Assembly: GCA_902780395.1 (NCBI GenBank) | Contig: CACZFH010000007.1 | Coordinates: 1-55,086, forward strand | Source of the DNA: an uncultured Erysipelotrichaceae bacterium | Lineage (GTDB): Bacteria > Bacillota_I > Bacilli_A > RF39 > UBA660 | Direction: 5' to 3' | Length of the DNA: 55,086 nt | Shown here: positions 32,506 to 52,525 of the stretch, one piece after another | Position numbering within the stretch: the first letter of the stretch is position 1 | How the letters are laid out: every line of letters starts with the position of its first letter | Position numbers and translations under genes: made by a program | Notes under the pieces: generated by a model | What the model saw: only the letters and a program-made list of their open reading frames with translations | Databases searched by the model: none | What the model was told of the DNA's origin: nothing

Positions 32506-32514
32506 TGTTAAAAT
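32506..32514 (+). promoter_or_regulatory. Extended -10 promoter of the plus-strand TasA-like gene
   Basis: TTATG-T-TAAAAT (TAAAAT at 32509-32514), 16 bases upstream of the chosen ATG. It matches the extended -10 form of the minus-strand genes. Confidence 0.5.
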
Positions 32515-32530
32515 GATAATAGGTGATACT

Positions 32531-33124
32531 ATGAAGAAGAAAGATATCCGTTTTCTGATAATATTTATAGTAATTGTAACATTCTCACTATTTTATTTAT
32601 TCCAATCATCGTATGCAAAATACCGAAAACAAGTATCAGCAGGAATGCAAGCAACCATAGCCAGTTGGAATATCAAAGTAAATAATGAGAATATCAATAA
32701 CAAATCAACTCTAACAAATAGTATTATTCCAACAATAGATTCAAATCAATATATAAAATCCGGAGTTATTGCTCCTGGTTCTACTGGACACTTTGAAGTT
32801 GTAATAAATGCCGAAGATGTAGATGTAGACTTTAATTATGAAATAGAAAGTGAAGTTGATGAAAATACTCCTCTAACCGATTTAACCTTTACTGGTTACA
32901 AGATAGGAACAGGAGCTGTTCAAACCTTTTCAGGAGGAAATACTACTATCACAGGAAACATAACTAAAAACACCTCAGATACTACAATAACAGTCTATTT
33001 TACTTGGAATGACAGTGCAACCAATAATATGAATAATCAAGCGGATACTGAATATGCCATTGATGAAGACCATGAAAATACCAATATTATTGTAAGTATC
33101 CACTTTACTCAAAGATCTTCCTAA
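32531..33124 (+). CDS. TasA/camelysin-like anchored surface protein (SipW-type substrate)
   Basis: The 197-residue protein has one N-terminal hydrophobic helix (about 6-27), followed by QSSYAKYRKQVSAGMQATIASWNIKVN at the mature end: only the A-K-Y and A-x-W pattern matters here. This boundary is typical of SipW-dependent TasA/camelysin-like proteins. The rest is a beta-rich domain with the recurring APGSTGHFEVVINAE phrase near residue 75, also seen as SPGSTGTISLELDP in the 207-residue neighbour. Function is probably as a fibre or matrix subunit, by family. The ATG at 32531 has GGTGAT at good spacing. It is the only protein gene on the plus strand, has its own promoter and terminator, and lies at the edge of the minus-strand island it resembles. 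Confidence 0.8.
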   Translation: MKKKDIRFLIIFIVIVTFSLFYLFQSSYAKYRKQVSAGMQATIASWNIKVNNENINNKSTLTNSIIPTIDSNQYIKSGVIAPGSTGHFEVVINAEDVDVDFNYEIESEVDENTPLTDLTFTGYKIGTGAVQTFSGGNTTITGNITKNTSDTTITVYFTWNDSATNNMNNQADTEYAIDEDHENTNIIVSIHFTQRSS

Positions 33125-33141: not shown

Positions 33142-33164
33142 AAAAAAAACCGAAATCGGTTTTT
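33142..33164 (-). terminator. Terminator of the surface-assembly island
   Basis: AAAACCGA (33146-33153) and TCGGTTTT (33156-33163) pair, with a T-run on the minus strand. The stop of the 248-residue gene (33163-33165) overlaps the arm. It converges back to back with the plus-strand terminator. Confidence 0.75.
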
Positions 33165-33909
33165 AATGAACTTGTTCTACTAATAAACGCATATTCATAA
33201 CCAAACAAGCTTGTCCAGAAGTTGCTTCATATTGAGCACACTGCATTCCAAAGAAACTATCAGCATCATCTTTTATTAAATACAAATTATTTCTTTGAGT
33301 ATTAAAAGCTGCTTGATTAGCAATAGGTGTTTCTGTATAAGTAGTACCAGATTTTAAATAGTAATAAAATGATTCATTATAATCATATACTTCATTCTGT
33401 TGATAATATTTTGGTGTTTGCGAATCATAAGGCCATACAATATTCACCTCAAAAGTAACACTATCAGTAGGAGACAAAACATAACTACTGGCATCAAACG
33501 TTACTGAAAAAGGATAATAATTCTCCAAGTAATCTTCTACATCTTGAATATTAGTCAAATTAATTGTATGTCCCAGTATTGAAAGGCTCAATACATCATA
33601 AGAAAAGTTTGCAGAAACATCACTATTAGACTCAATCTCAATAGTTTTGTTAAAATCTGGCATTCCTGGCTTCATTTTTGTAACTTCCACCACAATATCT
33701 CTAGCAATAACACCAGTATTATCTTTAAATTCTACATCCCAAGCTGCTACCGTAGCATCTAATTCCAATCCTGCATTAGCTGAAAAAGCAAACCATGCAA
33801 AAATATTAACACCCAAAGTAAAAAGTGCTAATAAGATACTAAAGTATTTTCTCTTATTCAAGCTTTTACGAAAGCTTTCTAATTGTTCTTTAGTAATTTG
33901 CTTTTTCAT
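33163..33909 (-). CDS. TasA/camelysin-like anchored surface protein
   Basis: The 248-residue protein has a charged N-terminus, one hydrophobic helix (about 22-44) and a mature end AGLELDATVAAWDVEF, which carries the A-A-W-D-V pattern common after the signal helix in TasA/camelysin-like proteins. The extracellular part is beta-rich with many Tyr and Asn, a PGMPDFNKTIEIES phrase near residue 80 and two Cys late in the chain (MQCAQ, QACLV). It is probably a fibre or coat subunit processed by the SipW-type peptidase encoded immediately upstream (11-base gap). The ribosome binding site is AAGGAAGG. It is the last gene of the island. Family placement is by pattern. Confidence 0.75.
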   Translation of the reverse strand: MKKQITKEQLESFRKSLNKRKYFSILLALFTLGVNIFAWFAFSANAGLELDATVAAWDVEFKDNTGVIARDIVVEVTKMKPGMPDFNKTIEIESNSDVSANFSYDVLSLSILGHTINLTNIQDVEDYLENYYPFSVTFDASSYVLSPTDSVTFEVNIVWPYDSQTPKYYQQNEVYDYNESFYYYLKSGTTYTETPIANQAAFNTQRNNLYLIKDDADSFFGMQCAQYEATSGQACLVMNMRLLVEQVH

Positions 33910-33920
33910 AGACCCTTCCT

Positions 33921-34625
33921 TTATATTATTTCTTCATCAAATACCTTTTTTTCTACAACTTCTTCGATTTCTTCTTTATCTGAAGGAACTTCTTCTTCTT
34001 TATTTTTTTCCACAAGAACTGTGGATTGTTCAACTTCACTCTTTTCTTTTTTTATCTCTTTAATCTCATTTTTTTCTAATTGAATGTCAGTTATTGTTTG
34101 TAAAACTTCTAACACAATAATCAGTACCAAAGGACAAAAGATTAATAAGAAAAATCCTAACTGACTCTTTACAACATGATTTAATAAAGATATTAGAGGT
34201 ACAATCCCAACAACTTTTCCTAATACTTGTTTTTCACTAATTACCGGATCTGCAACTGGTGCATTTACACCTTTCGTTGTAAAAATCTTTTTGCCATCTT
34301 CTCCAACTTCAATCTTTATAATACGGTGGGTAATAAGCATACCTTCTAAGCCCCCACGATTACCTTGATAAGCAATGTCATCTCCTACTTTTAGTGTATT
34401 AGTATCACAATCTTGTACAGCAATAACATCATTTATCTCATAAACACCTGACATCGATCCCGTTGCAACAGTAAATAAACGATATCCCATAACACTTTTA
34501 TTACCACTAAATCTTTGTAAAACAACAAATACAACATAGAAAAGAATAATAGCCCCCAAGATAAAACGAACTAATCCCATTGCAAACTGAAATAATTTAT
34601 TGTCAAATATTTTTTTCACCTTCAT
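33921..34625 (-). CDS. SipW-type (S26B) signal peptidase
   Basis: The 234-residue protein is an ER/archaeal-type signal peptidase like Bacillus SipW, which cleaves TasA-type secreted proteins. The N-terminal membrane helix (about 12-35) leads to ATGSMSGVYEI, with the catalytic Ser near residue 58. ITHRI near 103 supplies the His that replaces Lys in this subfamily. A second membrane helix (about 155-180) is followed by a Lys/Glu-rich cytoplasmic tail of about 55 residues, longer than in SipW. The start overlaps the DUF2357 gene by ATGA, so the two are translationally coupled. Likely substrates are the small TasA-like proteins encoded in this island (inference). Confidence 0.92.
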   Translation of the reverse strand: MKVKKIFDNKLFQFAMGLVRFILGAIILFYVVFVVLQRFSGNKSVMGYRLFTVATGSMSGVYEINDVIAVQDCDTNTLKVGDDIAYQGNRGGLEGMLITHRIIKIEVGEDGKKIFTTKGVNAPVADPVISEKQVLGKVVGIVPLISLLNHVVKSQLGFFLLIFCPLVLIIVLEVLQTITDIQLEKNEIKEIKKEKSEVEQSTVLVEKNKEEEVPSDKEEIEEVVEKKVFDEEII

Positions 34626-35728
34626 GCCTCTTTTCGTAAGTGATTCAATACATCATTCAATGATTTTTCTTCTCTCTCTAATCGATCTTCCAATACTCCA
34701 TAAATCCGTTTAGAACGATTTTCATTTCTTTCTTTGATATTTTTAATCTGTTTCAAAAAAGCTTCTTGTATTTTATCCTCTGTTAAATCTGGATCTGTAT
34801 CTAATAAATTCTCAACCAATCTTTGAATCATTTGATTAATAATATTAGATTCCGTAGTAGCTTGACTACTACTAATAAAATTCTTATTAGCAATAAAAGC
34901 CATTAAGAATGCTTGATCATATTCATTTTTCAAAATACCTTTATCAAAAAATTCTCTTTTCTCTTTTTCTTTTTTATCTTTACTTTCAAATGCTTGAATA
35001 AAATTCCATAACTCTTCTGCTTTTCTAAAATTAGGATTTTTCAAAATAACATTTGTCTTTTTAATAGGACTATGAACTGGTTCAAAATGAAGTTTACTTA
35101 ATATCTGCATTAATTCACTGCCGAAGAATCCATCAATTTGCGTTTTTACCTTCCGAATTCTTTCAGCATAAGTCATTTCTCCCCTATCTCCACTATGTTC
35201 TTGAATATTCTTAGTAACATCACTAACATCAATACTTATTTTTAAATCTTCCCCATAAACTTTGGTATTAGCCTCATACTTTAATAAATTCTTATCCAAA
35301 CAATAGCTTGATCCAGATGTATTAGAAACTCTCATTTCAAAGAACAAACGTAGATTATTTAAAAGGGTATGAATAAAACGATTTTCATAAGTATCCATAC
35401 TTTCTTCTTTATTAATATTCAAAATCTTAGATGGTTTAACATCGCCATCCTTATCAATATCTTGAATTAGATTGGTATGTTGCGTAAGATGAATAACTGA
35501 TTCAACAGTAACTTTTCTAGCCAACTCAACTTTAACAATCTCTTCTTCATTTATAATAAATCTCTTAGGATTACGAATAATATTATCAATATAAGGAAGG
35601 CAATCTTCAATAAGATCAAGCCACCCATAATCAAATTCTTTCATATCATAATCTTTTTTTACAAATAATGTGGAATTCAAATTATGAAGAAATAACTCAT
35701 CATCATCTAATACCTCTTCTTGATCCAT
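34622..35728 (-). CDS. DUF2357/McrC-like protein, partner of the McrB-like ATPase
   Basis: The 368-residue protein is hydrophilic and mainly helical, without membrane segments. The segment MDTYENRFIHTLLNNLRLF near residue 120 resembles the ENRF hallmark of DUF2357 domains, which lie in McrC-like partners of McrB-type ATPases. The C-terminus is rich in Lys and Glu helices (KNIKERNENRSKRIYGVLED). I see no PD-(D/E)xK nuclease motif, so it probably cannot cut DNA. The start at 35728 has a perfect AGGAGGTGAT; the longer frame begins at GTG inside it. The gene follows the ATPase with a 15-base gap and is coupled to SipW downstream. The DUF2357 assignment is by eye from a short motif plus context. 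Confidence 0.68.
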   Translation of the reverse strand: MDQEEVLDDDELFLHNLNSTLFVKKDYDMKEFDYGWLDLIEDCLPYIDNIIRNPKRFIINEEEIVKVELARKVTVESVIHLTQHTNLIQDIDKDGDVKPSKILNINKEESMDTYENRFIHTLLNNLRLFFEMRVSNTSGSSYCLDKNLLKYEANTKVYGEDLKISIDVSDVTKNIQEHSGDRGEMTYAERIRKVKTQIDGFFGSELMQILSKLHFEPVHSPIKKTNVILKNPNFRKAEELWNFIQAFESKDKKEKEKREFFDKGILKNEYDQAFLMAFIANKNFISSSQATTESNIINQMIQRLVENLLDTDPDLTEDKIQEAFLKQIKNIKERNENRSKRIYGVLEDRLEREEKSLNDVLNHLRKEA

Positions 35729-35743
35729 TGAAATCACCTCCTA

Positions 35744-37276
35744 TTAAACTAATTTCTTAAGTCTTAATAAATATTCCTTACATTCATTAAAGTTTTCTTT
35801 TCCAAAACTCTTATCCAAAAATTCAATAAATGGATCTATTTCATCACGAATATAAGCTAAGTTTAATTGTTCAAATTTACGTAAGATTTTACGAGCAATA
35901 TAATAATCTACTCCATCAACTTCAGTACCACCACAAGCTATATAAGTTGCTACAAAATCTCTCATCTGTTTAACAATACGGTTACCAAAAGCAATACGGA
36001 AATGTTTAATAACATAATCATCCATATCATTAATTTTACCTTCCATTTCAGAAGTTAATGGATATTTACTTTTAGCTTCAGCAAATAAACCTTCCAAATA
36101 AGAACTATTTATATTCATAGCTTCTGTATCAACCGGTTCAAATACTTGCCCTTTATCATTAATATCAATTGGCATAGCACGGTCATACACTTTATCAGTA
36201 ACAGCAAACGTTGAGTCATCATTATTAATTGTACCAATATACCACATATTACCAGGAATCTGTAATTTACCATTCTTCAATAACTTTGGATCGGTGTCCC
36301 AAGAACTAGGAACTAACTCAATAATCCATTCATCACGAGAAGGCATTTCCAAAATAGATAACATTTCAGCAAAATAATACTCAACACGAGCAATATTCAT
36401 CTCATCTAGTACAGTAACATATACATCATCTGTATAATTAGCCAAATAAAGTCCCTTTAATACTTCTGTTTCATTAAATTTCTTAGTAAATTCATTGAAA
36501 TAACCAAATAACTCGGTACGATCTCTCCAAGAAGGTTGAACAGAAGCAATAATTGCATCATTCTTAATAAATTTACCCCAAGCATAAGCCAAAGAAGTTT
36601 TACCAGTACCAGAAATACCTTGTAAGATAACTAACTTAGTAGCAGATAATCCTGAAATAAATAATCGAATCATATTCGTCGTATAATAAAGTCTTAATTT
36701 AGAAGCACAGAAATTTCTAAATGATTCAACTAATTCTTCTAAAGTAAAAGTATTACCATATTGTTGAACTTTATAATCTCTAAACTGCAAATCAATTGCA
36801 TGAAGTTTACTGAAACGATAGTTATCTAAATCACCATCTAAATTATCCGTACTTTCTGTTTCTTCTGAAGTAACAGTAGCTTCTTCTCCAGGTTTTAATC
36901 CTAATTGAGAAACTTTCATTGCTAAAATCTTCTCTTTTTCTTGTACCAAAGAAGCAACTTCTCTGTTTAATTCTCCAATCTCATTTAACATAGATTCTTG
37001 TTCAACTAAAGTTTTTCTAAACTTAATATATTTTTTAACAAAGAATCCAATTATTAAAACAATTAAAGCTAGTACAAAGAACATAACTAAAACAGCAATC
37101 ACAACAAGTACCCATTCAGCAACATTTAAATCTTTTCGATAAAACTCAATAACATATAAATATTCTTGTACACTAAATATTTGTATAATTCCTTTAAAGA
37201 ATCCTCCAACAATCATACCGATTCCACGGAAAAATACAGACATGAATTCATATAAAAATCGAACAAAGGTATTCAT
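35744..37276 (-). CDS. Membrane-anchored McrB-like AAA+ ATPase
   Basis: The 510-residue protein has N-terminal hydrophobic segments (about 5-35 and 50-80), a coiled-coil-like Glu/Lys region to about 130 and an AAA+ domain of the McrB/dynein-like type. Walker A ILQGISGTGKTS is near residue 220. The WRDRTELFGYF segment near 255 and Walker B VLDEMNIARVEYYFAEML near 290 are typical of McrB-like GTPases/ATPases. Sensor 1 is IGTINNDDST near 350 and an Arg finger candidate VYDRAMPID near 363. Classic McrB is soluble with a DNA-binding N-terminus; here two membrane segments replace it. The ATG at 37276 has AGGAGG six bases away. The gene sits between an unassigned protein and a DUF2357 protein within a secretion locus. 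Confidence 0.85.
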   Translation of the reverse strand: MNTFVRFLYEFMSVFFRGIGMIVGGFFKGIIQIFSVQEYLYVIEFYRKDLNVAEWVLVVIAVLVMFFVLALIVLIIGFFVKKYIKFRKTLVEQESMLNEIGELNREVASLVQEKEKILAMKVSQLGLKPGEEATVTSEETESTDNLDGDLDNYRFSKLHAIDLQFRDYKVQQYGNTFTLEELVESFRNFCASKLRLYYTTNMIRLFISGLSATKLVILQGISGTGKTSLAYAWGKFIKNDAIIASVQPSWRDRTELFGYFNEFTKKFNETEVLKGLYLANYTDDVYVTVLDEMNIARVEYYFAEMLSILEMPSRDEWIIELVPSSWDTDPKLLKNGKLQIPGNMWYIGTINNDDSTFAVTDKVYDRAMPIDINDKGQVFEPVDTEAMNINSSYLEGLFAEAKSKYPLTSEMEGKINDMDDYVIKHFRIAFGNRIVKQMRDFVATYIACGGTEVDGVDYYIARKILRKFEQLNLAYIRDEIDPFIEFLDKSFGKENFNECKEYLLRLKKLV

Positions 37277-37277
37277 A

Positions 37278-38333
37278 TTACTCCTCCTCAAATACTAAAA
37301 CTTCCATAGAATCACTATGATAACCTAAGAAATATTCCCTATTAGTGTATTTGCAATCACTAACAACTAAATAACGGAATACCCCTTCTTGACGGATACT
37401 ATCTGTTTTTTGATAGACATCACTGATATGAGAAAAATCTTGTATACAGGCAAAATGATAATCCTCCACAAAAGCACCTTCCTGAGCTTGATAAGTAGGA
37501 AAAGAAACACAGATAATAACATAACGACGAAATAAAGGATTATCAATTAAATCAAATATCTCATCATCGATTTTCCCTCTATGAATAACTGAATCAGGAA
37601 ATTCAATAAAAATTAAAGGAATCTTCTTCTTTTCCAATACACTTTTTAATAAGAAAAAGGATACTTTTTGAATCAAACAACGAATTTTTAAACGACTTAA
37701 ATCTTTATGTTGATATACTTTATAAATCGTAGTAGTACGATAAACATCCAAAGCCTTAATAGAAGGTATAAGTTTATAAAATACTTTATCTTCTTTACCC
37801 TCAAATTTATACTCTTCTATTTGATAATAATTATCTTCATAATTCAATAATTTTAAAGAATTTTGATATGTTTCACGAACCAAAGAAATAAGTTTATTTC
37901 TACGATCTTTTACCAGCTTATTAAGAATCTCATTTTCATCTAAAAAAGCATTAATCTTTTCACTAACATCTTCTTTAGAATCAAATGATAATGAATCAAT
38001 CTTAATTATTTCAAAACAGATAGGATTTAAATCTCTGATTTTTTGACAATGTTCTTTATATTCCTCATTACTAACAAGTAATTCATAAGAACGATAATCA
38101 TAAAGCATTTCTTCCATAATACCCTTCAATTCTTTTTTTAAGTTGTCAATAGAATATTCTTCATCATCATCAATTGTATGAAAAACATGATAGTAATAAT
38201 TATCTACATAAGTTTGAAAATACTCATGAAAAACAGACTGAATAAAATCATCTTGATTTTCAGTCATAAACTTTGCATATGCTACAAGGCGATTTATTTT
38301 ATAATTCATAAAAATTGTAATTAAATTGTTCAT
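37278..38333 (-). CDS. Unassigned cytoplasmic protein of the ATPase/DUF2357 cluster
   Basis: The 351-residue protein has no membrane segment and no motif I can name. The N-terminal half is helical with many Tyr, Asp and Glu. The C-terminal half alternates strands and helices (IPLIFIEFPDS, RRYVIICVSF, VEDYHFACIQDF, FRYLVVSDCKY), which suggests an alpha/beta or barrel-like fold. It is the first gene of a unit with the McrB-like ATPase (one-base gap), the DUF2357 protein, SipW and the last TasA-like protein. A promoter precedes it and GGTGAT lies at good distance from the ATG. The tight spacing suggests a subunit or substrate adaptor of the ATPase; that is inference. Confidence 0.7.
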   Translation of the reverse strand: MNNLITIFMNYKINRLVAYAKFMTENQDDFIQSVFHEYFQTYVDNYYYHVFHTIDDDEEYSIDNLKKELKGIMEEMLYDYRSYELLVSNEEYKEHCQKIRDLNPICFEIIKIDSLSFDSKEDVSEKINAFLDENEILNKLVKDRRNKLISLVRETYQNSLKLLNYEDNYYQIEEYKFEGKEDKVFYKLIPSIKALDVYRTTTIYKVYQHKDLSRLKIRCLIQKVSFFLLKSVLEKKKIPLIFIEFPDSVIHRGKIDDEIFDLIDNPLFRRYVIICVSFPTYQAQEGAFVEDYHFACIQDFSHISDVYQKTDSIRQEGVFRYLVVSDCKYTNREYFLGYHSDSMEVLVFEEE

Positions 38334-38390: not shown

Positions 38391-39326
38391 TTAATTTGCA
38401 GAAATTACAGAAACTGTAATAATAGATGAATTGTTGACTATTGGATATGTATAATTTTGTGTAACATCATTTTTATAAAAAAGAATTGAGTTACTAGAAC
38501 TAGCATTTACCTTAAAAGAAAACTTTTTGACATATTGGAATCCACCTATCGTTTGTTCCTCATAATTTGTATTAAGCCGTGATAAGAATAACTTATCAGT
38601 CATATCAACAAACAAAATAGTTGGATCATATTGAACAGTAACTATAGCTGAAAAGCACTTAGCTTTATCTGTATCACTCAAATTACTATAATCATCTAAA
38701 GAAACTTGATCACCTTGTGAATAATTACCAAAAGCTTGCTCTACCTCATAGTAAGAAATAGCATTAGTAAAATTAATAAGCAAATACTTAGAGTTAACAC
38801 TATCAACAATTTCATAAGAAAAGTCACTCTTCTCAACACCAATGGTATAAGTAGCCGACATAGTCTTTGCATAAGGAGAAGAAGAAACTACCCAAGTATT
38901 AACAACCACTGTGTCCCCCTCATAGAAATTCTGAAGAGGTGTTACCGTAATAGTATAAGTGTCACTAGTATCTTCAGGATGTAAAACCCCTTCTGTATCA
39001 CTAAGAGTACAAGTTACTGTACTTGGACAACTAACATAGATATCATAATCGATATCTGTAGTTGTATAACGAGTATCACTTTTACGGTTATTTAAATCAA
39101 TTGTCAAAGGATAAGAATTAACTCCATCCCAATTAGTAATAGAAAAGTTTTTTCCATTAACTGCTAAAATACTACTATTAAAATAGAAAGCTTTTGTTTC
39201 TAAAATAAATTCATTAACAATATTTTTAATATATCGTCCAAAAACAACAGTTGCTAGAAAGAATACTAATAATAATACTAAAATAATCATACTAGCAATC
39301 CGATGTTCTCTAATAAATTTCATCAT
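38391..39326 (-). CDS. Anchored surface protein of the SipW/TasA-like island
   Basis: The 311-residue protein has one N-terminal membrane helix (about 10-32). The signal boundary VVFGRYIKNIVNEFILETKAF resembles that of the 204-residue neighbour. The extracellular part is beta-rich: a C-x6-C pair (SCPSTVTC) near residue 105, Ig-like strands such as TYTITVTPLQNFYEGDTV near 125, and a second domain ending in strand-rich Tyr/Asn sequence. It is probably a structural component. The start ATG has AGGAGG six bases upstream and is 10 bases after the 204-residue gene. There is no promoter in between, so it shares a transcript with its two upstream neighbours. I cannot name a Pfam-type family with confidence. 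Confidence 0.72.
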   Translation of the reverse strand: MMKFIREHRIASMIILVLLLVFFLATVVFGRYIKNIVNEFILETKAFYFNSSILAVNGKNFSITNWDGVNSYPLTIDLNNRKSDTRYTTTDIDYDIYVSCPSTVTCTLSDTEGVLHPEDTSDTYTITVTPLQNFYEGDTVVVNTWVVSSSPYAKTMSATYTIGVEKSDFSYEIVDSVNSKYLLINFTNAISYYEVEQAFGNYSQGDQVSLDDYSNLSDTDKAKCFSAIVTVQYDPTILFVDMTDKLFLSRLNTNYEEQTIGGFQYVKKFSFKVNASSSNSILFYKNDVTQNYTYPIVNNSSIITVSVISAN

Positions 39327-39336
39327 AGTATTCCTC

Positions 39337-39951
39337 CTATATTATTTGTTGAGAATTAATAGTAACTTCAATACTTTCAATAGAATTTGCATAAACTGGG
39401 TTATTAGCATAGGTAGCTGGATAGTTAATAACCATTGTATAAATATCTGTCACATGACTTGTATAAGCCATCTGATAAGTAGACCCTGAAGTATATAAAC
39501 GATACCAAGCTGAATCAGCATCTTGCCTTGTCTGAGCACCACCATTAAAAATATTAGTTGCTCCTACTGCCGTATGTAACTCATTTCGATACATACTTAT
39601 TGTAATTGGTAAATTCGTAGTAGTCCGCACCTGAATCGTATAAGAGATATCCACATCACTTTCCTTAGTTGTATTAAAATTAGATACACTAAACTTATAA
39701 ACATAAGGATCATTACTAGGAATAATACCATCAGAATCTAAATTAAAAGATAATTTTTCATCTTCAAAAATATATAAAGCTTTATCAATATTGGAATTAA
39801 TCATAGCCCTTACCTCATATCTAGCAAAGGCCATTCCTAATAAATATTTAGCTAAAAAGAAAACTAAAAATAAAATCAACGCAAAAAGAAGAAAACGAAT
39901 CTTTTCTTTCATATATGGTGTTTCTTGTAATTTTCTTCTTAATGTTTCCAT
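39337..39951 (-). CDS. Anchored surface protein of the SipW/TasA-like island
   Basis: The 204-residue protein has a charged N-terminus, one membrane helix (about 18-40) and a boundary of the form GMAFARYEVRAMINSNIDKA, like other SipW-type substrates (A-R-Y after the helix). The mature part is a beta-rich domain (YIFEDEKLSFNLDSDG, YKFSVSNFNTTKE, DISYTIQVRTTTNLPITIS) resembling camelysin/TasA folds. It has no Cys and no enzyme motif. It is 12 bases after the 207-residue gene, with AAAGGAG upstream of ATG, so the trio 207/204/311 is one unit. Family assignment is by pattern. Confidence 0.75.
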   Translation of the reverse strand: METLRRKLQETPYMKEKIRFLLFALILFLVFFLAKYLLGMAFARYEVRAMINSNIDKALYIFEDEKLSFNLDSDGIIPSNDPYVYKFSVSNFNTTKESDVDISYTIQVRTTTNLPITISMYRNELHTAVGATNIFNGGAQTRQDADSAWYRLYTSGSTYQMAYTSHVTDIYTMVINYPATYANNPVYANSIESIEVTINSQQII

Positions 39952-39963
39952 ATTTCTCCTTTA

Positions 39964-40587
39964 CTAACCAGAATAAGGGGTTAAAGTTTCTCCTTGGTAC
40001 TGTAATCCATGAAAATGGATTTCAAATAAATCATCATAAGCTTGACTATCTTCAGTAATTCCTTCAATATCGGTTAAATAATCAAAGAAAAAACCTACAC
40101 TAATATGAATCTTCTTACCATTAGCAATATCTGTCAAAGAGATAATACCAGAATAAGTATCAACTCCTGTTCTAATAAAAGTATCATCATCAGAAGTAAT
40201 ATTACTAAAATTCAATAATTTATCTTCATCAATAACTTTATCAACAAAGCGAAATTCATAAAGAATAGCTACTTCACTACCAGCAGGATCTAATTCCAAA
40301 CTAATTGTTCCAGTACTACCAGGAGATAACTTTGCTTCTCTTGTATGAGTAGAAACCCATGTAGTATTATCTAATATAATTTGATTATTAAGAGTACTAT
40401 CATTATTTTCAACAACATCCACTCCATTTATGCTCAAATGAATTCCTGCTGTCTTAGTACTTGCATTAGCATCAATCTCAGACTCAAATGCCGTATAAGT
40501 ATTCTTTGATCCTAAATACAAAAAACAAACTACTATTAGAATTAACACAATAATAATATATTTTTTTTCACGTTTCTCTGTATCCAT
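39964..40587 (-). CDS. TasA/camelysin-like anchored surface protein
   Basis: The 207-residue protein has an N-terminal basic stretch, one membrane helix (about 10-26) and SKNTYTAFESEIDANASTKT at the mature end, close to the SipW/TasA pattern. AGIHLSINGVDV, SPGSTGTISLELDP near residue 88 and a beta-rich remainder follow. The SPGSTG phrase also occurs in the plus-strand gene at 32.5 kb. It is probably a structural surface subunit. It leads a three-gene unit, with an extended -10 promoter, an upstream terminator, and ATAGGAGAT before the ATG. Confidence 0.78.
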   Translation of the reverse strand: MDTEKREKKYIIIVLILIVVCFLYLGSKNTYTAFESEIDANASTKTAGIHLSINGVDVVENNDSTLNNQIILDNTTWVSTHTREAKLSPGSTGTISLELDPAGSEVAILYEFRFVDKVIDEDKLLNFSNITSDDDTFIRTGVDTYSGIISLTDIANGKKIHISVGFFFDYLTDIEGITEDSQAYDDLFEIHFHGLQYQGETLTPYSG

Positions 40588-40653: not shown

Positions 40654-41289
40654 TTATATAATTTCTTCTTTTTCTTTGTCATCCTTAGTTACTATCTTCT
40701 CTTCTTTTACTTCCTTCTTAGTTTCTACTTTCTTTTTTACCTCATCATCATCATTTTCATCTTCATCTACTCTTTCATAACGAATAATCATTACAAATTC
40801 ATATACTTGATAAATAAAGACAATCATAATAGGTAATAACACTAAGAATAAGAAACCTACTCGACTCTCAACAACATCCAAAAATGCTCCTAATCCTTTA
40901 TAAGTACTAGTATATTTTCCAATGATACGAGTATCAACAACAGTAATTTCATCGTCTCCATGTTTAATCGTAAATAAAGAAGTATAACCATCATCATCAA
41001 TTTTTAAAATAACATCACTACGAACAACATAAGTTTCATTATAAGCAGCATAATAGTAAATAACATCTCCCACTTTAAAGTCATTACTATTCTTAATAAC
41101 TAATAAATCACCTTTTTTTGCTACAGTCATATTTCTCTCATCAATTAAACTAACATTATCAAATGTATAATCCCCAAACTGCGTATATCCATATTTATTA
41201 CGACATAGAATAAATGCAGTAATAGCAATAACATAAACGATAATAATTACTTCAAAGATAGACCAAACCAACCGTCCAAATTTTTTCAT
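40654..41289 (-). CDS. Signal-peptidase-fold paralogue lacking catalytic residues
   Basis: The 211-residue protein has the layout of the two SipW-type peptidases here: an N-terminal helix (about 8-28), an extracellular S26-like domain, a second helix (about 140-165) and a Lys/Glu-rich cytoplasmic tail. GDLLVIKNSNDFKVGDVIYYY aligns with the GDVI region and IIGKYTSTYKGLGAFLDVVE with the IIGKV region of the active enzymes. However, where those have ATGSMSG this has YTFDNVSLIDERN, and where they have ITHR it has VVRSD. The Ser and His of the dyad are therefore missing, and it is probably a pseudoenzyme, chaperone or docking subunit. It has its own promoter and terminator and follows the giant protein gene. 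Confidence 0.75.
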   Translation of the reverse strand: MKKFGRLVWSIFEVIIIVYVIAITAFILCRNKYGYTQFGDYTFDNVSLIDERNMTVAKKGDLLVIKNSNDFKVGDVIYYYAAYNETYVVRSDVILKIDDDGYTSLFTIKHGDDEITVVDTRIIGKYTSTYKGLGAFLDVVESRVGFLFLVLLPIMIVFIYQVYEFVMIIRYERVDEDENDDDEVKKKVETKKEVKEEKIVTKDDKEKEEII

Positions 41290-41340: not shown

Positions 41341-44300
41341 TTATGTTAAATTTTTCTTAACAATAACATATTTAATTTCTTCATCAATTAATTGATTTCC
41401 ATCATATAATTTAAAGACAACTTTATAAGTACCACTTGTTAAACTACTTTGTAATTGGAAATCTAAAGATTCCTCATCATCACTCATTGTAAAGCTTACT
41501 TCATTTCCACTAACAACAGTCAAATTATTGGTAAATAATTGACTAAATGGAACCGAATCATACTCTATAGCATCAATAGAAGTAACCTTTCTCTTATAAA
41601 TTTCAACCCTAAAGTTTGGATTTGTCAATTGTGACTCATATTTTACATCATAAGTATTAATTCTAGAACCAGCTAAATTCAAACCAGTTTCACCATTAAC
41701 AACTTTCGCCAAATCATCACAATCAACAGTAATTGAGTTATCAGCACTAACAACCGTTACATTAAATTGTTGAGTAACTGAGTTTTCTTGATGCGAATTA
41801 TGAAGACCATCGTCAGAAGCAAATAACACATATCGAACTTTATACTGTCCAGCTGGTAAATTCTTATTAGCAACAATTCTCATATTACGATTCAAATTAG
41901 ATACTTTATTAGATAGTTTAATTCTAAAGATACCATCACCATCAGCAAAGTATTCTTGATTACCTACAAAGATACTTGTACCAATTAATAAACTTGAACT
42001 AACTGGATCATCATTCATATCTAAGAATATAACATTAAGACCCATACTACTTGATTCATAATTTGTATCAATAACAGATTCACGGTTTTCTGTTTCATTA
42101 TATTGAATTTCTGTAGCATATGAAAATTCATCAGCAATATTATAATACAAATAAGAATCTGTATCTTGAATAGTTTGATTCAAAACAACATTACTACTTT
42201 CATAAGTATTATAAACCATCAAATCTTCACGAATACCTAAAACACCTAATTTAGTACGATCCTCATTATCACGCAATTCAAATAAAATATTATTATTTAA
42301 ATGATCACCTGTAGTAGTCGTCTCTTTAAAGTCAAAGATAAAGATAAATTCCTCATCAGCAAAATGACTATCCGAATCATAATATAATTGATTAGCAATA
42401 CTATCATCATATGTATTATTAGTACTAGTACTATCCATTAATATAAACTGATCCAGTCGATAAGAAACCTCATTATATTGATTCATTTGTTGAACAGAAT
42501 CATCATACACAGCTTGTGTAACTCTAAAATAATAATAATTAGGTCTATCATCATTAGCACCAAAATCTAACATTGTAATCATTGTATTTAATGGTAAAAC
42601 ATGATCACTAGTAATAACATGATAATAATCATTATTACGTCCATAAACACTTTCAAATGTTGGACTAGATAAAATCATCGAAAAATAAGCTGTAAACTGA
42701 CTTTGATTAGTAATATTAACCATAGTAGAAGAAGGCATTTCATACTTTCTATCATAAGTAATAGAAGCATCATAACTATCTCCATCATTATACTTTCTAG
42801 CAACTAAATTAATAGTAACAGTAATAAATGTTATATCATAATCAATAGCATTAATAGGAACAGCCGCTTGTAGAGTCAAAACAACTGTACCTAAATTAGC
42901 TTGTAAATCAATATTCTTAGTATGGTACAAATAAAACATCAATGACGGAGCAACCGCTCTACTATCAGTATGATAATAATCATCTCCTAAAGTATCTCCA
43001 TCTCCATCACTAATCAATTTAGTAACTCCATAACTCATCCACTCTTGAGTTTCAGCTTTCATAGATAAACCTAAAACACTATTAGCCTCTTCTGGAGTTT
43101 GGCCAATTCTTGGTACTAAGTTAGAGTCAATCAAACTAACATCAGGATTTAAACCACTACTATCAAATCCTAAAACAGTAAAAGTTGTATCTCCATCAGC
43201 AAAATCAATTAATTGTAATTCATAAGTACCTAAAGAAGAATACTTAGAAGCAGTTAAAGTAAATTCATAATTAATAGCTTCAAATCCAATAATCCAACGA
43301 TAACCAGTTTCTCCAATAGGGCTAGGATCAATATAGTATGTTTCAATAGAAGTAAAAGTCTCTTCATCTAATTGATTTGAATAGAAACCGTCTTTAGTAA
43401 TATCATGATTAACATTACGTAAACCAACTACATAACTACCACCAATAATTTCTAAAGAAGCATTACCACTATCTCCATAAGAAAAAGCCGGATCATATAA
43501 ACCAAAACGATAAGTACCATTATCAAATGCTTGATACATTCCAAAGAATGTCATACCTGTTACTCTACCATAAGAAGTAGCCGCCTGATTAACCGTAACA
43601 TTTAAGTTTTGACCAGGAATCATATAAATACGATTATCAACATTTTTAGTAACAGTTCCATTATCATCATCAATATTTACAGTAGCTGGTACTAACCCAT
43701 TATTAGTATCAACACCACTATAAAATTCCTTTAATAAGTTAGCATTATGATGCATCATTAAAGTAGAATTATTCTTTAAAATCAAATGATCAATAATATT
43801 AAGAGAATAATCAATATCAGAATACTCATTAGTACGGTCTGTTGTACCATATAATTCTATAACCGAAGAATCTATTACTAGATTATTTGCTCTTTGAATA
43901 GAAATACAAACATTAGGATGAGCAAAAGTACCTAAATTCTTAACATTAACATTAGAAGTTCCAGAAGAACTAGATGCATTACCACTACCAAAGATACTAC
44001 CATTAATAACGAAATCATGAGAATGAGATTCATAACCAGAACCATCAATATTAACAGTAATACCTTCTGTTACCGAAATAAATGTCCAGTCATAAGTAGT
44101 ACTTCCAGAGGCATTACTTTCACCTCCACCAAAAACAGTACCAGAAATAACAATATCATCTTCAACTAATCCATTTAAATTAACAGCACTAGTTCCGATA
44201 TTCGTTTCTGTAATACCATAAACAACAGCCATTTTTGGTCCACCATAAACATTTCCATGAATCTTTCCACCAACAATATTAACTTTAGCAATAGCCCCAC

Positions 44301-47300
44301 CATTAGCTGCTAAACCAGTAGAAGCTGCATTTCCTGAACCAAAGACACAACCATCATTAGGAGCCACACTTGTTGCTGTTCCAATTTCAGAAGATCCATC
44401 AATTGTAATAGTAGAATTACCAGCAACAACGGCTGTACTACCATTACCACCAGCAAAAGCATTTCCTTGAATATGACTATCAGTAACATATACTAATGTA
44501 CTTCCATCAACAACTCCTTCATTTCCTCCACCATAAATATTATTAATTACAGTAGAAGAATTTATATCTAGAAGTGTATTAGTACTAACTCCAGCAGCAT
44601 CTCCACCACCATAAATATCAGTAGCTGTTGTATTAGTTACAGAAACATTGGTTGACCCAACACCTGCACTTTTACCACCACCATAGATAGTTCCAATCGT
44701 ACCAGAAGTAGTTGTAATATTAGCATTAGTAGTTATTCCACCAAAGTTGTTACCACCATAAACATTAGAAATCATTGGTGTTGTTGTATTACTACCGATA
44801 TTAACATTAGAAGTAGCTATATCACCAGATTCATTAGAACCACCAAATACATTTCCAACTGTACCATTTAAAATGGTAACATGAGAAGTCGTAAGACCAG
44901 CTTCATTTCCTCCACCATAGACATTATCAATAGTACCACTATGAATCGTTACATAAGATGTAGTAGCTCCTGCATTATCTCCTCCACCAAACACATTCGT
45001 AATAGTAGAAGTAGTAGCATCAACATTAGTTGTTCCAGTTGTACCACCTTGATTATTTCCACCATATAAAGCAGTTAATTGTGATCCAGTAATATCCACA
45101 TCACTAGTAGTAACATCTCCACTAACATTAGAACCACCAAATACATTACCAGCAGTAGAATTAGTAATCGTTACATGAGAATTAGTAAGTCCAGCTTCTT
45201 TTCCACCACCGTAAACATCATTAACAGTAACTCCTGTAACATTGACATAAGAATTAGTAGAATCAGCTTCATTTCCACCACCATAGATATCTCCAGTGAT
45301 TGTTCCACCACTAACATCTACATGAGTAGTAGCTGTTCTTCCATCTTCGTTATTTCCACCATATATATCTGTAACACTACCTGAAGTAACCGTAACATTA
45401 GAAGTTGTTACATTTCCTATTACGTTAGATCCACCATATAGATTACCCGTAATAGTAGAACCTTGTAAACGAATATCCGTAGTATTTTGACCAGTATTAT
45501 TACCTCCACCATAGGCATTACCAATCGTACCACCATTCAAATAAACGATATCTGAACCACTAGGTTGTCCTGCAGCATCATTTCCACCATAAACAGTTCC
45601 AATCGTACCACCATCAACAGTAACAGTAACATTACCAACCACTCTTGGTGTATAACTAGAAGATCCTTTACCACCACCAAAGACACTATTTTGAATCGTA
45701 CCACCTTCAATGGTAACACTTGTAGTTCCACCAGCTGTTGTAGTTGTATAGTTAGCAGCATTAACCGTACCATAAGCAGAACCACCATAAACAGAACCTT
45801 TAATTAAACCGCTTGAAATAGTAACATCAACATTATTACGTACAAATGTACCACGGGTATAAACACTATTATTGCTGGTGTAACCACCTTCACCACCACC
45901 GTAGACATCATTATCAATTTCGCCACCATTAATGTTAACATTAACAGATCCATAAATAATACCACTACTATTACTTCCACCATAAACAGAACCTTTAACC
46001 ACTCCATTAGTCATAGTAATATTAACTGTTGAAGTAACAGAAGTACTACCACTACCATTATTATTTCCACCACCATAGACATTTCCATTGATAGTTCCAC
46101 CTAATAATTGAATATTAGTAGTTGACGTATTAGAAGAACTTTGAGCCCCAACAGAACCATAATTTCCTCCACCATAAACGTTCCCTGCTATTTCAGCTTG
46201 ACCATCGATAATGACATTAGAATTATCGGCAGCACCTAACCCATCTTTATTAGTATTACCATTACCAACTCCAAAGACAGATCCAATTTCTGCTCCAAAC
46301 AAAGCATTTGCTGCTCCACCTACTTTACAATTACCACCAACATAAATAAAGGTATCACCATATAAAACACCAGTATCCGAACTACTATTAGTAATTGTAG
46401 AACCATTACTACCACCAAAGATATTATTATTAACAACTCCACCAGTGGCATTAACAACACGATTTCCATAAGTAGCTCCAGATCCCGAAGAAGCAAAAAT
46501 TACATCAACACTTCCACCTTTTACATTAATATCAACACTATTAAGATCTTGAGTAGCTTGAACAGAACCTAATCCACCAATGATGTTATAAATATATCCA
46601 CCTTCAACTGTAATTCGACGATATCCATAAATTGTCGCACCACGACCACCTACATAAATACCAGAATATAATCCATTCTTACTAGTTCCAAAACTACCAC
46701 TTCTAACATAGATATCATATAACTTAGAAGTATTATCATTACCTCGTACTGTAACAGTACCACCATGCCCTTGGAAAGAATAATAAACATTCAAATTATC
46801 ATTATCATTAAGTGCTCTATCAATATCACAACCTAAATATGTTTTAGAGTAAACATACAAAGTACCTCTTGCTCCTGTAGATTCATATTGATAAATATTA
46901 TTATATTTTCCACTTTCAATAATCAACGAAAAATGATAAGGATCACTAGCCGAACCTTTTGTAAATGAAGAAGTTCTAAAAGTACCACCCCAAACACCTT
47001 TCATCCATCTATTACTAGCTTGAGAAATTCCTCTACCTACTTTAAAATTAAAATAATTTCCAACAAGGGCATTGGTACTAACATAACTACTACTTGAAGT
47101 TAAAGAAGCACTTGCTGATGTATCTGTCGTTATATTAAGATGTTCAATTCTAGCATCAGCATTAGCAACCATACTATCCCATGATAAACGAATAGTTCCA
47201 CCTGTATTATTATTTCCATTAATACCTGTAATCGTAACAGGTTTGGTAATAGAAAAACCATCATGAGTTCCACTTAAAATCATAATATTAGTATCTCTAG

Positions 47301-49392
47301 TAACTAAGTAATAATATTGAGTAGTACCTTGTGCATAATTAACGTTTCCGTATTCATCATAATATTGAAGTAACTTATAATAATTACAAGTACCGCTGCA
47401 ATTACCATGCATCAAATTACCATTACCATCATATAACCCTTCAACACTTCCACCATTATAAACCGTTACTCTTTGATAATTACCAGCAACAATTTTATCA
47501 CTTGCAAAATAAGGTGTAATAACCAAAGTATAGCTTGGTGTATGCATCCTAACAACAGCATCAGGAGGATTTGGGAAAGTTAATTCATAATAAGTAGTAC
47601 CCTGAATATAATCAGAAGTATCATTAAGTGTTAAATAAGTACATCCACCACGAGTTGTACAACGAGTTCCTGGAGTAATATACTGTCCATTTGTTTGATA
47701 GCAATCAACATCATTTGGAAAATAACTATAACGTGCAAGAGTTTTTTGAACATAATAACCGGACATATCCTCATAAATACGTTCCTCTTCATTAGGATAT
47801 TCTTCCATTCCTCTATTTTTTAAATTAGTAAAACTAGTAGACGTTACCGTAGTAGCATCAGTCCAAGAAGTTTTAAATTCAATCGAAATAGTCTCTCCAG
47901 CACTTGCTGGAATAGTAACTGTTCTTTCATAATAATCCATATCTAATTGAATTACTGCATTAGGATAATCAGTAACCCAACCATTAAAAGCTTTTCCTGT
48001 AGGTCTCTTAGCCCAAGGATTATCAATCAAAGTAAAAGTAACTTTACCATCTACAATTGGATAATATTTATAATAATAAATCTTATCATAAGCTTCCGTA
48101 TTACTTACTTGTCCATAAATAGTATTGTCATTTACATCATGACTATCATAAACCATATAAACTTTTGCTAAATTAGTATCACCATATAAATTATGATTTT
48201 GCCCATCAGGAATAGTTGAATCAGCAGAAAAAGTATAATTCATTCCTAAATAATGATTATAATCACTAGTTAAATCATTTAAATAAAGAGAAGTCCCACT
48301 ATATCCAGTATCATGTAAAGTAATAGAAGCAGCCTTTCTAATAGAAAAATTAAAGCTCTTAGACTCTACCGGTACATCTTCTACTTTTTCTTCAAAAATA
48401 CGTAAAACAAAATGATTATCAACATAATCCCAATAAAAAGGGCTTTCCATATTTTCATTCAATTTAGCAAGTAGAGCTTCATCAGTAATAACATCCTCTT
48501 GTTGATAATAATGATCATCATGATAATAGAAATAGTTAGGAATATCAATATTCTCTAAATCTGTAGAACTATTAATTAATGTAATATGATTAACAAAATT
48601 AGTAATCTCAGGTAATTCTTCTCCCCCAAAGAAAGTTAATGTTTGATTCTCTAAATTACTTGTAATTTCACCATCCAAATAAACATTATGAACTTTACTA
48701 TGATTGGCATCACCCATAAATGCATAAATATAATTATCAGCAGTAGTTACTTTAGAAAAATCAATATTATAATTAAGTAAAATAATATTCTGAAAAACAG
48801 AAAGAGTCTCGCCAGATTCTGTATCGGTAACCTCATTAATACCAATAAAAGGCGAAACAACAATTTTAATTTCACTATCTTCTACTTCAATCCGATAATT
48901 ATCAACCGTTAATCTTTCAATAGAAGCATCTTTTGTCTTTGTAAATAAAGAATAATAAGATTCCTCAGAAAAAACAACAGGTTCAACAATCTTAAAATTC
49001 TTAAGAGCATAGCCAGCCCCATCAAAATGACCAGCAAATATTCTTTCTTCTTCCCCTTCTATAACACCAATTGGTTTAATAGCATTCTGATTAAAATCAA
49101 TATCATTTCCTAAAGAATAATACAAATTACTATAAGCAAAAGAATTGTCTCCCTCAATTAATTGTTTAAAATACATATATTCAGATGCATCTTTAATAAT
49201 ATAAGGATTCTCTTTAGTACCATTTCCTAAAGAAAAACTAGTTGCTACTGTATAACCATCCCATCCATCTGGATCTGCTAATGTATAAACGCTTGTTATA
49301 AAAGAATAAATTCCAAAAGAAGCAACAGCCAAAATAAAAAGAGCAGCAAAATAAAGATAGATTTTTGTACTGATATTAAAATTCTTTTTCAC
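41341..49392 (-). CDS. Giant repeat surface protein with YGGGN-type beta-helix
   Basis: The 2683-residue protein has one N-terminal membrane helix (about 10-33). A signal boundary near TLADPDGWDG, a GNGTKENPYII motif and a GLUG-like FAGHFDGAGYALKNF segment (near 125) follow. A Cys-containing Tyr-rich region (about 340-700) comes next. Residues about 985-1765 form an array of 25-residue repeats built on V-Y-G-G-G-N, a parallel beta-helix design typical of adhesins. The C-terminal 900 residues hold several beta-sandwich-like domains. There is no LPXTG anchor. The start is the GTG at 49392, eight bases after GGAAG; the GTG at 49401 lies directly against the ribosome site. It follows the extended SipW gene by 16 bases, probably one transcript. 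Confidence 0.9.
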   Translation of the reverse strand: MKKNFNISTKIYLYFAALFILAVASFGIYSFITSVYTLADPDGWDGYTVATSFSLGNGTKENPYIIKDASEYMYFKQLIEGDNSFAYSNLYYSLGNDIDFNQNAIKPIGVIEGEEERIFAGHFDGAGYALKNFKIVEPVVFSEESYYSLFTKTKDASIERLTVDNYRIEVEDSEIKIVVSPFIGINEVTDTESGETLSVFQNIILLNYNIDFSKVTTADNYIYAFMGDANHSKVHNVYLDGEITSNLENQTLTFFGGEELPEITNFVNHITLINSSTDLENIDIPNYFYYHDDHYYQQEDVITDEALLAKLNENMESPFYWDYVDNHFVLRIFEEKVEDVPVESKSFNFSIRKAASITLHDTGYSGTSLYLNDLTSDYNHYLGMNYTFSADSTIPDGQNHNLYGDTNLAKVYMVYDSHDVNDNTIYGQVSNTEAYDKIYYYKYYPIVDGKVTFTLIDNPWAKRPTGKAFNGWVTDYPNAVIQLDMDYYERTVTIPASAGETISIEFKTSWTDATTVTSTSFTNLKNRGMEEYPNEEERIYEDMSGYYVQKTLARYSYFPNDVDCYQTNGQYITPGTRCTTRGGCTYLTLNDTSDYIQGTTYYELTFPNPPDAVVRMHTPSYTLVITPYFASDKIVAGNYQRVTVYNGGSVEGLYDGNGNLMHGNCSGTCNYYKLLQYYDEYGNVNYAQGTTQYYYLVTRDTNIMILSGTHDGFSITKPVTITGINGNNNTGGTIRLSWDSMVANADARIEHLNITTDTSASASLTSSSSYVSTNALVGNYFNFKVGRGISQASNRWMKGVWGGTFRTSSFTKGSASDPYHFSLIIESGKYNNIYQYESTGARGTLYVYSKTYLGCDIDRALNDNDNLNVYYSFQGHGGTVTVRGNDNTSKLYDIYVRSGSFGTSKNGLYSGIYVGGRGATIYGYRRITVEGGYIYNIIGGLGSVQATQDLNSVDINVKGGSVDVIFASSGSGATYGNRVVNATGGVVNNNIFGGSNGSTITNSSSDTGVLYGDTFIYVGGNCKVGGAANALFGAEIGSVFGVGNGNTNKDGLGAADNSNVIIDGQAEIAGNVYGGGNYGSVGAQSSSNTSTTNIQLLGGTINGNVYGGGNNNGSGSTSVTSTVNITMTNGVVKGSVYGGSNSSGIIYGSVNVNINGGEIDNDVYGGGEGGYTSNNSVYTRGTFVRNNVDVTISSGLIKGSVYGGSAYGTVNAANYTTTTAGGTTSVTIEGGTIQNSVFGGGKGSSSYTPRVVGNVTVTVDGGTIGTVYGGNDAAGQPSGSDIVYLNGGTIGNAYGGGNNTGQNTTDIRLQGSTITGNLYGGSNVIGNVTTSNVTVTSGSVTDIYGGNNEDGRTATTHVDVSGGTITGDIYGGGNEADSTNSYVNVTGVTVNDVYGGGKEAGLTNSHVTITNSTAGNVFGGSNVSGDVTTSDVDITGSQLTALYGGNNQGGTTGTTNVDATTSTITNVFGGGDNAGATTSYVTIHSGTIDNVYGGGNEAGLTTSHVTILNGTVGNVFGGSNESGDIATSNVNIGSNTTTPMISNVYGGNNFGGITTNANITTTSGTIGTIYGGGKSAGVGSTNVSVTNTTATDIYGGGDAAGVSTNTLLDINSSTVINNIYGGGNEGVVDGSTLVYVTDSHIQGNAFAGGNGSTAVVAGNSTITIDGSSEIGTATSVAPNDGCVFGSGNAASTGLAANGGAIAKVNIVGGKIHGNVYGGPKMAVVYGITETNIGTSAVNLNGLVEDDIVISGTVFGGGESNASGSTTYDWTFISVTEGITVNIDGSGYESHSHDFVINGSIFGSGNASSSSGTSNVNVKNLGTFAHPNVCISIQRANNLVIDSSVIELYGTTDRTNEYSDIDYSLNIIDHLILKNNSTLMMHHNANLLKEFYSGVDTNNGLVPATVNIDDDNGTVTKNVDNRIYMIPGQNLNVTVNQAATSYGRVTGMTFFGMYQAFDNGTYRFGLYDPAFSYGDSGNASLEIIGGSYVVGLRNVNHDITKDGFYSNQLDEETFTSIETYYIDPSPIGETGYRWIIGFEAINYEFTLTASKYSSLGTYELQLIDFADGDTTFTVLGFDSSGLNPDVSLIDSNLVPRIGQTPEEANSVLGLSMKAETQEWMSYGVTKLISDGDGDTLGDDYYHTDSRAVAPSLMFYLYHTKNIDLQANLGTVVLTLQAAVPINAIDYDITFITVTINLVARKYNDGDSYDASITYDRKYEMPSSTMVNITNQSQFTAYFSMILSSPTFESVYGRNNDYYHVITSDHVLPLNTMITMLDFGANDDRPNYYYFRVTQAVYDDSVQQMNQYNEVSYRLDQFILMDSTSTNNTYDDSIANQLYYDSDSHFADEEFIFIFDFKETTTTGDHLNNNILFELRDNEDRTKLGVLGIREDLMVYNTYESSNVVLNQTIQDTDSYLYYNIADEFSYATEIQYNETENRESVIDTNYESSSMGLNVIFLDMNDDPVSSSLLIGTSIFVGNQEYFADGDGIFRIKLSNKVSNLNRNMRIVANKNLPAGQYKVRYVLFASDDGLHNSHQENSVTQQFNVTVVSADNSITVDCDDLAKVVNGETGLNLAGSRINTYDVKYESQLTNPNFRVEIYKRKVTSIDAIEYDSVPFSQLFTNNLTVVSGNEVSFTMSDDEESLDFQLQSSLTSGTYKVVFKLYDGNQLIDEEIKYVIVKKNLT
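44100..46500 (-). repeat. YGGGN repeat array within the giant protein
   Basis: About 25-29 degenerate copies of a 75-base (25-codon) unit. Each encodes (V/I/L)-(Y/F)-G-G-(G/S/N)-(N/K/D)-x-x-G, followed by a Thr/Ser/Asn-rich strand of the form x-V-T-I-x-x-G-T-I. Nucleotide copies diverge, so amplification is not recent. The low-complexity sequence generates spurious open frames on both strands. Confidence 0.85.
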
Positions 49393-49408
49393 TGCTCTCA
49401 CTTCCTAA

Positions 49409-52380: not shown

Positions 52381-52525
52381 TAGTAATTTCACCACCTTCT
52401 ACATCCACTGAAGTATCTATTAGACAAGAGCGTAAATAATCTAAATGTTCCATTATTTTATGATATAGAACAAGTAAATCATCGTCCCCCAAATTTTGAA
52501 TTTCATTTAACACTTTATCGTCCAT
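52373..52525 (-). CDS. Small acidic 50-residue protein, coupled to the 541-residue gene
   Basis: This 50-residue frame starts at ATG 52525 with a very good GAGGTGAT three bases upstream and ends in TAG eight bases inside the next gene. The protein is acidic (MDDKVLNEIQ, GDDDLLVLYH, DVEGGEITNE) with one amphipathic helix and one Cys. It has no signal peptide. It fills what would otherwise be a gap with an unexplained ribosome binding site. Read-through past the weak terminator upstream would express it. Support is the ribosome site, codon usage and start/stop overlap; I assign no function. Confidence 0.6.
   Translation of the reverse strand: MDDKVLNEIQNLGDDDLLVLYHKIMEHLDYLRSCLIDTSVDVEGGEITNE

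Follow-up and report, generated by a model that had tools for sequence, protein, structure and literature searches.

The 55,086-nucleotide window analysed here, contig CACZFH010000007.1 of an uncultured Erysipelotrichaceae bacterium (GCA_902780395.1), carries three adjacent, co-directional genes on its minus strand that encode a 351-amino-acid (aa) protein, a membrane-anchored McrB-type AAA+ ATPase and a DUF2357 protein (Table 1). We consider that this trio probably forms a nucleoside triphosphate (NTP)-driven motor of the CoCoPALM type for the processing or assembly of SipW-dependent surface fibres, and does not serve antiviral defence, because a nuclease partner has been lost, a membrane anchor has been gained and surface-protein export genes are linked to the trio.

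The initial annotation of this DNA had described the middle gene as an McrB-like ATPase held in the membrane, and both parts of the description are borne out. Hidden Markov model (HMM) searches matched the protein to McrB of NCBIfam (E=8.9e-6) and weakly to AAA_5 of Pfam (E=0.031), and a profile of the ATPase family matched solved McrB structures (6hz4, E=1.3e-5). In an alignment of 34 ATPase sequences the Walker A motif is conserved with invariant core residues, and the Walker B core and the N-N-D residues of the NxD signature, as defined previously (PMC11090510), are invariant; N-x-D-[DE] is present in all architectures surveyed. No DNA-recognition domain was matched at the N-terminus by Pfam. 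Located there instead are one strong transmembrane (TM) helix that is hydrophobic throughout the family alignment, a weak hydrophobic stretch at residues 23–41 of the open reading frame (ORF), and a coiled-coil-like region that was read from the sequence only, the NCBIfam FtsL match of the ATPase being weak (E=0.025). The ATPase ORF opens with TTG at 37291; a better start is the downstream ATG at 37276, which follows the stop codon of the 351-aa gene after a single base (TAA-T-ATG). The DUF2357 gene probably starts downstream of its ORF opening, at an ATG near 35728 that lies 8 nucleotides after AGGAGG, and its end is joined to a SipW signal peptidase gene by an ATGA overlap. Both junctions had been read correctly in the initial annotation.

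The DUF2357 domain of the partner was confirmed by an HMM match to PF09823 (E=2.5e-11, well above the Pfam cutoff). Neither the ATPase nor the DUF2357 partner matched a PD-(D/E)xK nuclease in Pfam, while the same library detected PDDEXK_7 in a genuine nuclease-bearing relative (9.5e-52). An AlphaFold2 (AF2) model of the DUF2357 protein, of moderate confidence (predicted local distance difference test, pLDDT, 78), also has no PD-(D/E)xK core, in agreement with the earlier claim that the partner lacks a nuclease motif. The model ends in a long C-terminal helix of 51 residues, and the top structural matches included no McrC fold, the model being too uncertain for this comparison.

Cytosolic McrB relatives, which have no TM segments, were also found by these searches. 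The partners of two of these combine DUF2357 with PDDEXK_7 (9.5e-52 and 7.4e-27); one of the two loci lies near a C5 DNA methylase gene and the other adjoins a gene that appears Vsr-like. In a phylogenetic tree all membrane forms lie to one side of a branch supported at 100/97, the cytosolic rows being long and their exact placement unsure. Membrane anchor, nuclease loss and secretion context go together, since the nuclease-bearing relatives are cytosolic and the membrane forms separate from them in the tree; few cytosolic loci lie behind this contrast.

The trio could still be a defence system, namely a membrane-anchored derivative of type IV restriction that would detect invasion and respond at the membrane, as its McrB/DUF2357 ancestry, the description of CoCoPALM within a defence survey (Bell et al., PMC11090510) and a match of the ATPase to the PADLOC candidate model PDC-M26A (E=4.5e-37) would suggest. 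This model, however, mainly covers the AAA core that is common to nuclease-linked and membrane forms, no nuclease was found by Pfam or in the AF2 model, and every long locus has secretion, EAL or surface neighbours. A defence island was also sought directly: PADLOC, run on 97 neighbours, returned scattered generic matches (RecG-type helicase, patatin, AAA, and three mad2 matches that were not traceable to individual genes) and nothing that formed a coherent system. We therefore regard a defence role as improbable. The two observations that the initial annotation had named in advance as telling against its reading, a PD-(D/E)xK fold in either partner and a defence neighbourhood, were thus not made.

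The surroundings of the trio are strongly conserved. Loci were gathered from species genomes (80) and from relatives (about 30), and 106 related loci exhibit a near-fixed order: SipW1, three secreted proteins, the 351-aa protein, the ATPase, the DUF2357 protein, SipW2 and a further secreted protein. This order is kept while ATPase identity drops to about 52–65%, and on every contig that reaches far enough the ATPase gene is directly preceded by one of about 320–360 aa, or longer. The ATPase and the 351-aa protein occur in the same 31 of 39 same-genus genomes and are both absent from the same eight (Fisher 1.6e-8), and the 311-aa secreted protein encoded upstream of the trio occurs in 26 of the 31 genomes with the ATPase vs none of the eight without it (Fisher 2.1e-5); these values are uncorrected for relatedness and some of the eight genomes are incomplete. 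The trio does not stand beside secretion genes by chance.

Searching with a DUF2357 profile extended the family to 85 of the 296 genomes of the class. Among 81 loci outside the genus, 61 include SipW-like genes and 31 EAL-domain genes, and approximately 58 encode SipW-signal proteins and 39 giant surface proteins, the last two counts being approximate because classes were set by profile matches and a loose signal-sequence pattern. At least one of these four kinds of genes is present in every stretch of 11 kb or more (67 stretches). A survey of membrane-anchored McrB–DUF2357 pairs for linked SipW and TasA genes had been proposed with the initial annotation; SipW-like genes are present in most of these loci, and no sequence match to TasA was found among the secreted proteins of the locus itself. 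Three architectures were distinguished. Architecture A includes SipW and secreted proteins; in architecture B a surface protein of roughly 2100 aa is accompanied by a dead GGDEF-EAL protein encoded directly upstream of the ATPase; and in architecture C the DUF2357 gene is flanked by two ATPase genes, beside genes for giant repeat proteins.

The SipW peptidase encoded directly after the DUF2357 protein matches NF046067 (8.5e-23) and, above cutoff, TIGR02228 of NCBIfam; it also matches SEC11 by sequence, and Ser57, Met58 and His100 are kept in all aligned relatives. Two further SipW-like genes, missed initially, flank the giant surface protein gene. The first encodes a protein that is catalytically void in relatives as well, i.e. 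a signal-peptidase pseudoenzyme, and the second, beyond the giant gene, encodes a protein that matches PF00717 just under the Pfam cutoff (E=2.2e-4). Acidic-hydrophobic C-termini such as DEEII and EIELL were found in 27 of 81 and 16 of 54 SipWs vs 5 of 440 background ORFs, and such an end is possibly a docking or degradation tail. Both the peptidase that follows the DUF2357 gene and the pseudopeptidase end in EEII, and in related SipWs the last residues are EEII, IELL or IEIL.

A different role that fits these proteins is that of a MoxR/RavA-like chaperone, in which the AAA+ and DUF2357 proteins would remodel or activate a SipW complex, for example by pairing active and dead SipWs, without contributing to fibre growth. 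NorQ and RavA, related AAA+ proteins, act as maturation chaperones. The occurrence of one catalytically void and two active-looking SipW-like proteins in a single locus, as well as the fusion of SipW to homologues of the 351-aa protein (see below), would suit such a role, yet architectures B and C have no SipW near the pair and still keep giant surface proteins. We judge a pure chaperone function unlikely, though somewhat less so than defence, and retain fibre processing or assembly as the preferred function.

The third protein of the trio had been left unassigned. Its AF2 model is confident (pLDDT 94.3, predicted template modelling score 0.89), and in a structure comparison with VIA-align all 50 of the 50 listed matches were EAL domains, the best being FimX (7lkq, Z 12.6, root-mean-square deviation 3.3, 169 aligned residues). 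The best Foldseek matches were EAL domains too, with E no better than 5e-3. The catalytic acidic, Asn and Lys residues of EAL enzymes are not conserved in the 351-aa family alignment: in its EAL-like part no acidic column reaches 90% and scattered ones reach 60–85%. We thus predict a catalytically dead EAL-fold protein, a reading made more likely by the presence of intact EAL genes in many architecture A loci and by the dead EAL homologues in architecture B, where proteins of undoubted EAL homology without catalytic motifs occupy the same place upstream of the ATPase. Profile comparison shows the proteins encoded upstream of the ATPase to be homologous to each other (probabilities of 99.8% and 98.8%). 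They diverge much faster than the ATPase, e.g. 48–50% vs 88% identity. In five relatives the homologue is longer, with an extra N-terminus, which in two (L171 and L167) is a signal peptidase by Pfam and in a third (L170) resembles a dead SipW by sequence; the remaining two (L165 and L172) are of a length similar to the SipW fusions. A candidate PD-(D/E)xK motif in the 351-aa protein (VVSDCKY) was rejected, as the family does not conserve it and another fold is predicted.

The sequence of events that we infer, from the assembly of a ring to its coupling, the direction of its work and any physical contact, is the following. The McrB-like protein would assemble into a ring on the inner side of the membrane, to which its TM helix and coiled coil would anchor it. 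Into this ring the DUF2357 protein would insert and activate NTP hydrolysis, in the same way as McrC in McrBC, where DUF2357 stimulates the NTPase ring (PMC11090510). Having no nuclease, the ring would do its work on proteins, and since the DNA reader and nuclease are gone and a membrane anchor has been gained, the likeliest cargo is protein, either SipW complexes or SipW-dependent subunits. The ring would be coupled to the SipW peptidases of the locus, perhaps partly through the acidic-hydrophobic tails of some of them, and would drive the processing, extraction or polymerisation of SipW-dependent secreted proteins and of the giant surface protein. The 351-aa protein would then be a regulatory or docking adaptor between motor and SipW, in the manner of FimX, LapD and YdiV, and would probably bind proteins and not turn over cyclic di-GMP (c-di-GMP).

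Several observations weigh against this proposal. The EAL identity of the 351-aa protein depends on a predicted fold: Pfam EAL did not match it, and hhalign comparison of its profile with EAL alignments was not significant (E 0.04–0.43). The name EAL-fold protein is therefore used here and not that of a proven EAL family member, because sequence profiles alone show no kinship. The genome itself includes no Pfam EAL and a single, degenerate GGDEF protein, which makes a c-di-GMP input doubtful. The SipW tail motif is confined to a minority of SipWs. None of the neighbouring secreted proteins matched TasA in Pfam, NCBIfam or PDB sequences, so "TasA-like" can refer to signal type and arrangement only. 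Finally, the loci come mostly from one class and are partly redundant, and gene context is association, not mechanism. Further comparisons of the 351-aa profile gave chance matches only against sequences of solved structures, and nothing significant when the dead EAL proteins of architecture B were tried as sequence intermediates.

CoCoPALM was named in one passage, with its study deferred (Bell et al. 2024, eLife, PMC11090510), for NxD McrB GTPases that are fused to an FtsB-like TM/coiled-coil domain and linked to signal peptidases; a part in pilus assembly was guessed. The trio shares with it the NxD McrB-type NTPase, the N-terminal TM/coiled-coil region, the McrC/DUF2357 homologue and the linked signal peptidases. 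In CoCoPALM the McrC homologue is in addition fused to a coiled coil; what the model of the DUF2357 protein shows here is the C-terminal helix of 51 residues. That passage of the main text gives no function and no EAL protein, whereas the locus described here has an EAL-fold third gene. Beyond it we add the SipW fusions, the dead SipW, the secreted proteins, the three architectures, the co-presence across genomes and the contrast with nuclease-bearing relatives. The literature yielded no later CoCoPALM paper and no functional paper on McrB with SipW, in a search that was thin on subscription journals. The recruitment of an McrB/DUF2357 engine to secretion or surface assembly, as first proposed, is strongly supported by neighbourhood, co-presence, fusions and the nuclease contrast, but to call it undescribed was too strong, because CoCoPALM had already been named in 2024. 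The genes and junctions of the initial annotation stand, and what it missed is that the third protein looks EAL-like, that there are additional SipW-like genes and that the family extends across the class. It may be, although we lean slightly against so broad a statement, that NxD-McrB/DUF2357 pairs without a nuclease are a general NTP-driven machine, widespread in gut Bacilli and under the control of EAL-fold adaptors, that exports or polymerises surface proteins and is not based on known secretion ATPases.

Compared with other known systems, the locus resembles E. coli McrBC type IV restriction in its AAA+ core with intact Walker motifs, its DUF2357 activator domain and its paired genes; unlike McrBC, it has a membrane anchor and NxD in place of NxxD, and it has no DNA-reading domain, PD-(D/E)xK nuclease or defence neighbours. 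With FimX, LapD and YdiV the 351-aa protein shares a predicted EAL fold without catalytic residues; it differs from them in its lack of detectable sequence kinship, in its extra helical N-terminal half and in belonging to an organism without clear c-di-GMP enzymes. FimX and LapD regulate a pilus or an adhesin. As in the Bacillus SipW-TasA-TapA operon, a SipW-type peptidase is found together with proteins that carry SipW-type signals, but the substrates here are not TasA by sequence, and to our knowledge the Bacillus fibre operon includes no dedicated AAA+ motor.

A precedent for the co-option of an McrB-family AAA+ protein to an envelope role other than defence is PcdA of Staphylococcus cell division (PMC10602043), which carries EVE domains, has degraded Walker motifs and lacks an McrC-type partner; our locus, by contrast, retains the partner, and its NTPase motifs are invariant. 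By analogy, the trio could be a cell-envelope or division scaffold that acts through its FtsB/FtsL-like TM and coiled-coil region. The weak FtsL match would agree with this, as would two divergent trios, one beside mraZ-rsmH-ftsI (L168) and one near ftsI-mraY-ftsW-like genes (L166), assigned by sequence. However, only divergent paralogues sit by division genes; the main family is absent from eight of the 39 same-genus genomes, which would not be expected of a core division factor, and is constantly accompanied by SipW and secreted proteins. A division scaffold is accordingly the least probable of the explanations considered, and very improbable.

If the trio does drive the assembly of surface structures, a restriction motor has been domesticated for this purpose on a large scale, the named, uncharacterised CoCoPALM class is explained, and many gut Bacilli are provided with a surface machine that has a specific energy source. 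It would also be a warning for the prediction of defence genes, as an McrB/DUF2357 pair need not mean defence. The link to an EAL fold would moreover point to control of the motor in c-di-GMP style, or to the fossil of such control.

Table 1 Features of the trio and of the neighbouring genes in the window.
Feature	Position	Strand	Remarks
DUF2357 protein	ORF 34622-35737	-	McrC N-terminal-like partner; PF09823 match, AF2 model
McrB-type AAA+ NTPase, membrane-anchored	35744-37276 from ATG (ORF 35744-37291)	-	
NxD signature	36218-36226	-	ATPase; N-N-D, then D or E; NNDD here
Walker B core	36395-36409	-	ATPase; LDEMN
Walker A	36593-36619	-	ATPase; GISGTGKTS
Coiled-coil-like region, FtsL/FtsB-like	36905-37036	-	After TM helix; sequence and heptad count
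TM helix of NTPase	37049-37105	-	ORF residues 63-81; hydropathy 3.66
351-aa third protein of trio	37278-38333	-	Helical N-terminal half, predicted EAL-fold C-terminal half
Predicted degenerate EAL-fold domain	37281-37835	-	Model residues 166-350 of 351-aa protein
SipW-type signal peptidase	33921-34625	-	After DUF2357; catalytic Ser, His invariant
SipW-like pseudopeptidase	40654-41289	-	Upstream of secreted proteins; catalytic Ser and His lost
Third SipW-like signal peptidase	49409-50638	-	GSM and THR motifs, C-terminal extension
Secreted protein, SipW-type signal	32513-33124	+	Opposite strand in most relatives
Secreted protein, SipW-type signal	33163-33909	-	Invariant AWF after hydrophobic stretch
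311-aa secreted protein	38391-39326	-	Directly upstream of trio
Small secreted protein	39337-39951	-	
Small secreted protein	39964-40587	-	
2686-aa repetitive surface protein	41341-49401	-	Many YGGGN-type repeats; no Pfam domain above cutoff
546-aa conserved associated protein	50755-52395	-	Recurs in related loci; no Pfam match

The only GGDEF protein of the genome (L176, G000:C8:28800-31800) has a degenerate RTDGNEF motif and, judging by its sequence, a ligand-binding-like N-terminus; a single GGDEF match, to a protein of comparable length, is found in most genomes of the genus. In six architecture C loci (L142, L147, L153, L159, L160 and L231) the paired ATPases have differing membrane anchors, while their AAA coding DNA is 98.8–100% identical within a genome over about 1.1 kb, which points to gene conversion and perhaps to mixed rings. 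In four other loci (L219, L230, L232 and L238) the paired ATPase copies are about 78–80% identical.

The ATPases of distant relatives have 3–5 or 11–12 TM helices. Most of the former group keep SipW-like and SipW-signal neighbours, followed in some loci (L252-L255, L262 and L268) by genes that appear ABC-transporter-like. The latter, an approximately 900-aa polytopic McrB form with DUF2357 adjoining (L256-L260 and L263), mostly has no SipW nearby. The divergent trio of L166 (G317:C34:4200-24100), whose surroundings favour the surface-assembly reading, is located directly downstream of a Tad/Flp-like pilus operon, which includes a T2SSE ATPase by Pfam and genes that resemble CpaB, TadB and TadC, and is followed by a gene for a TM protein with acidic DIDGDG-type repeats.

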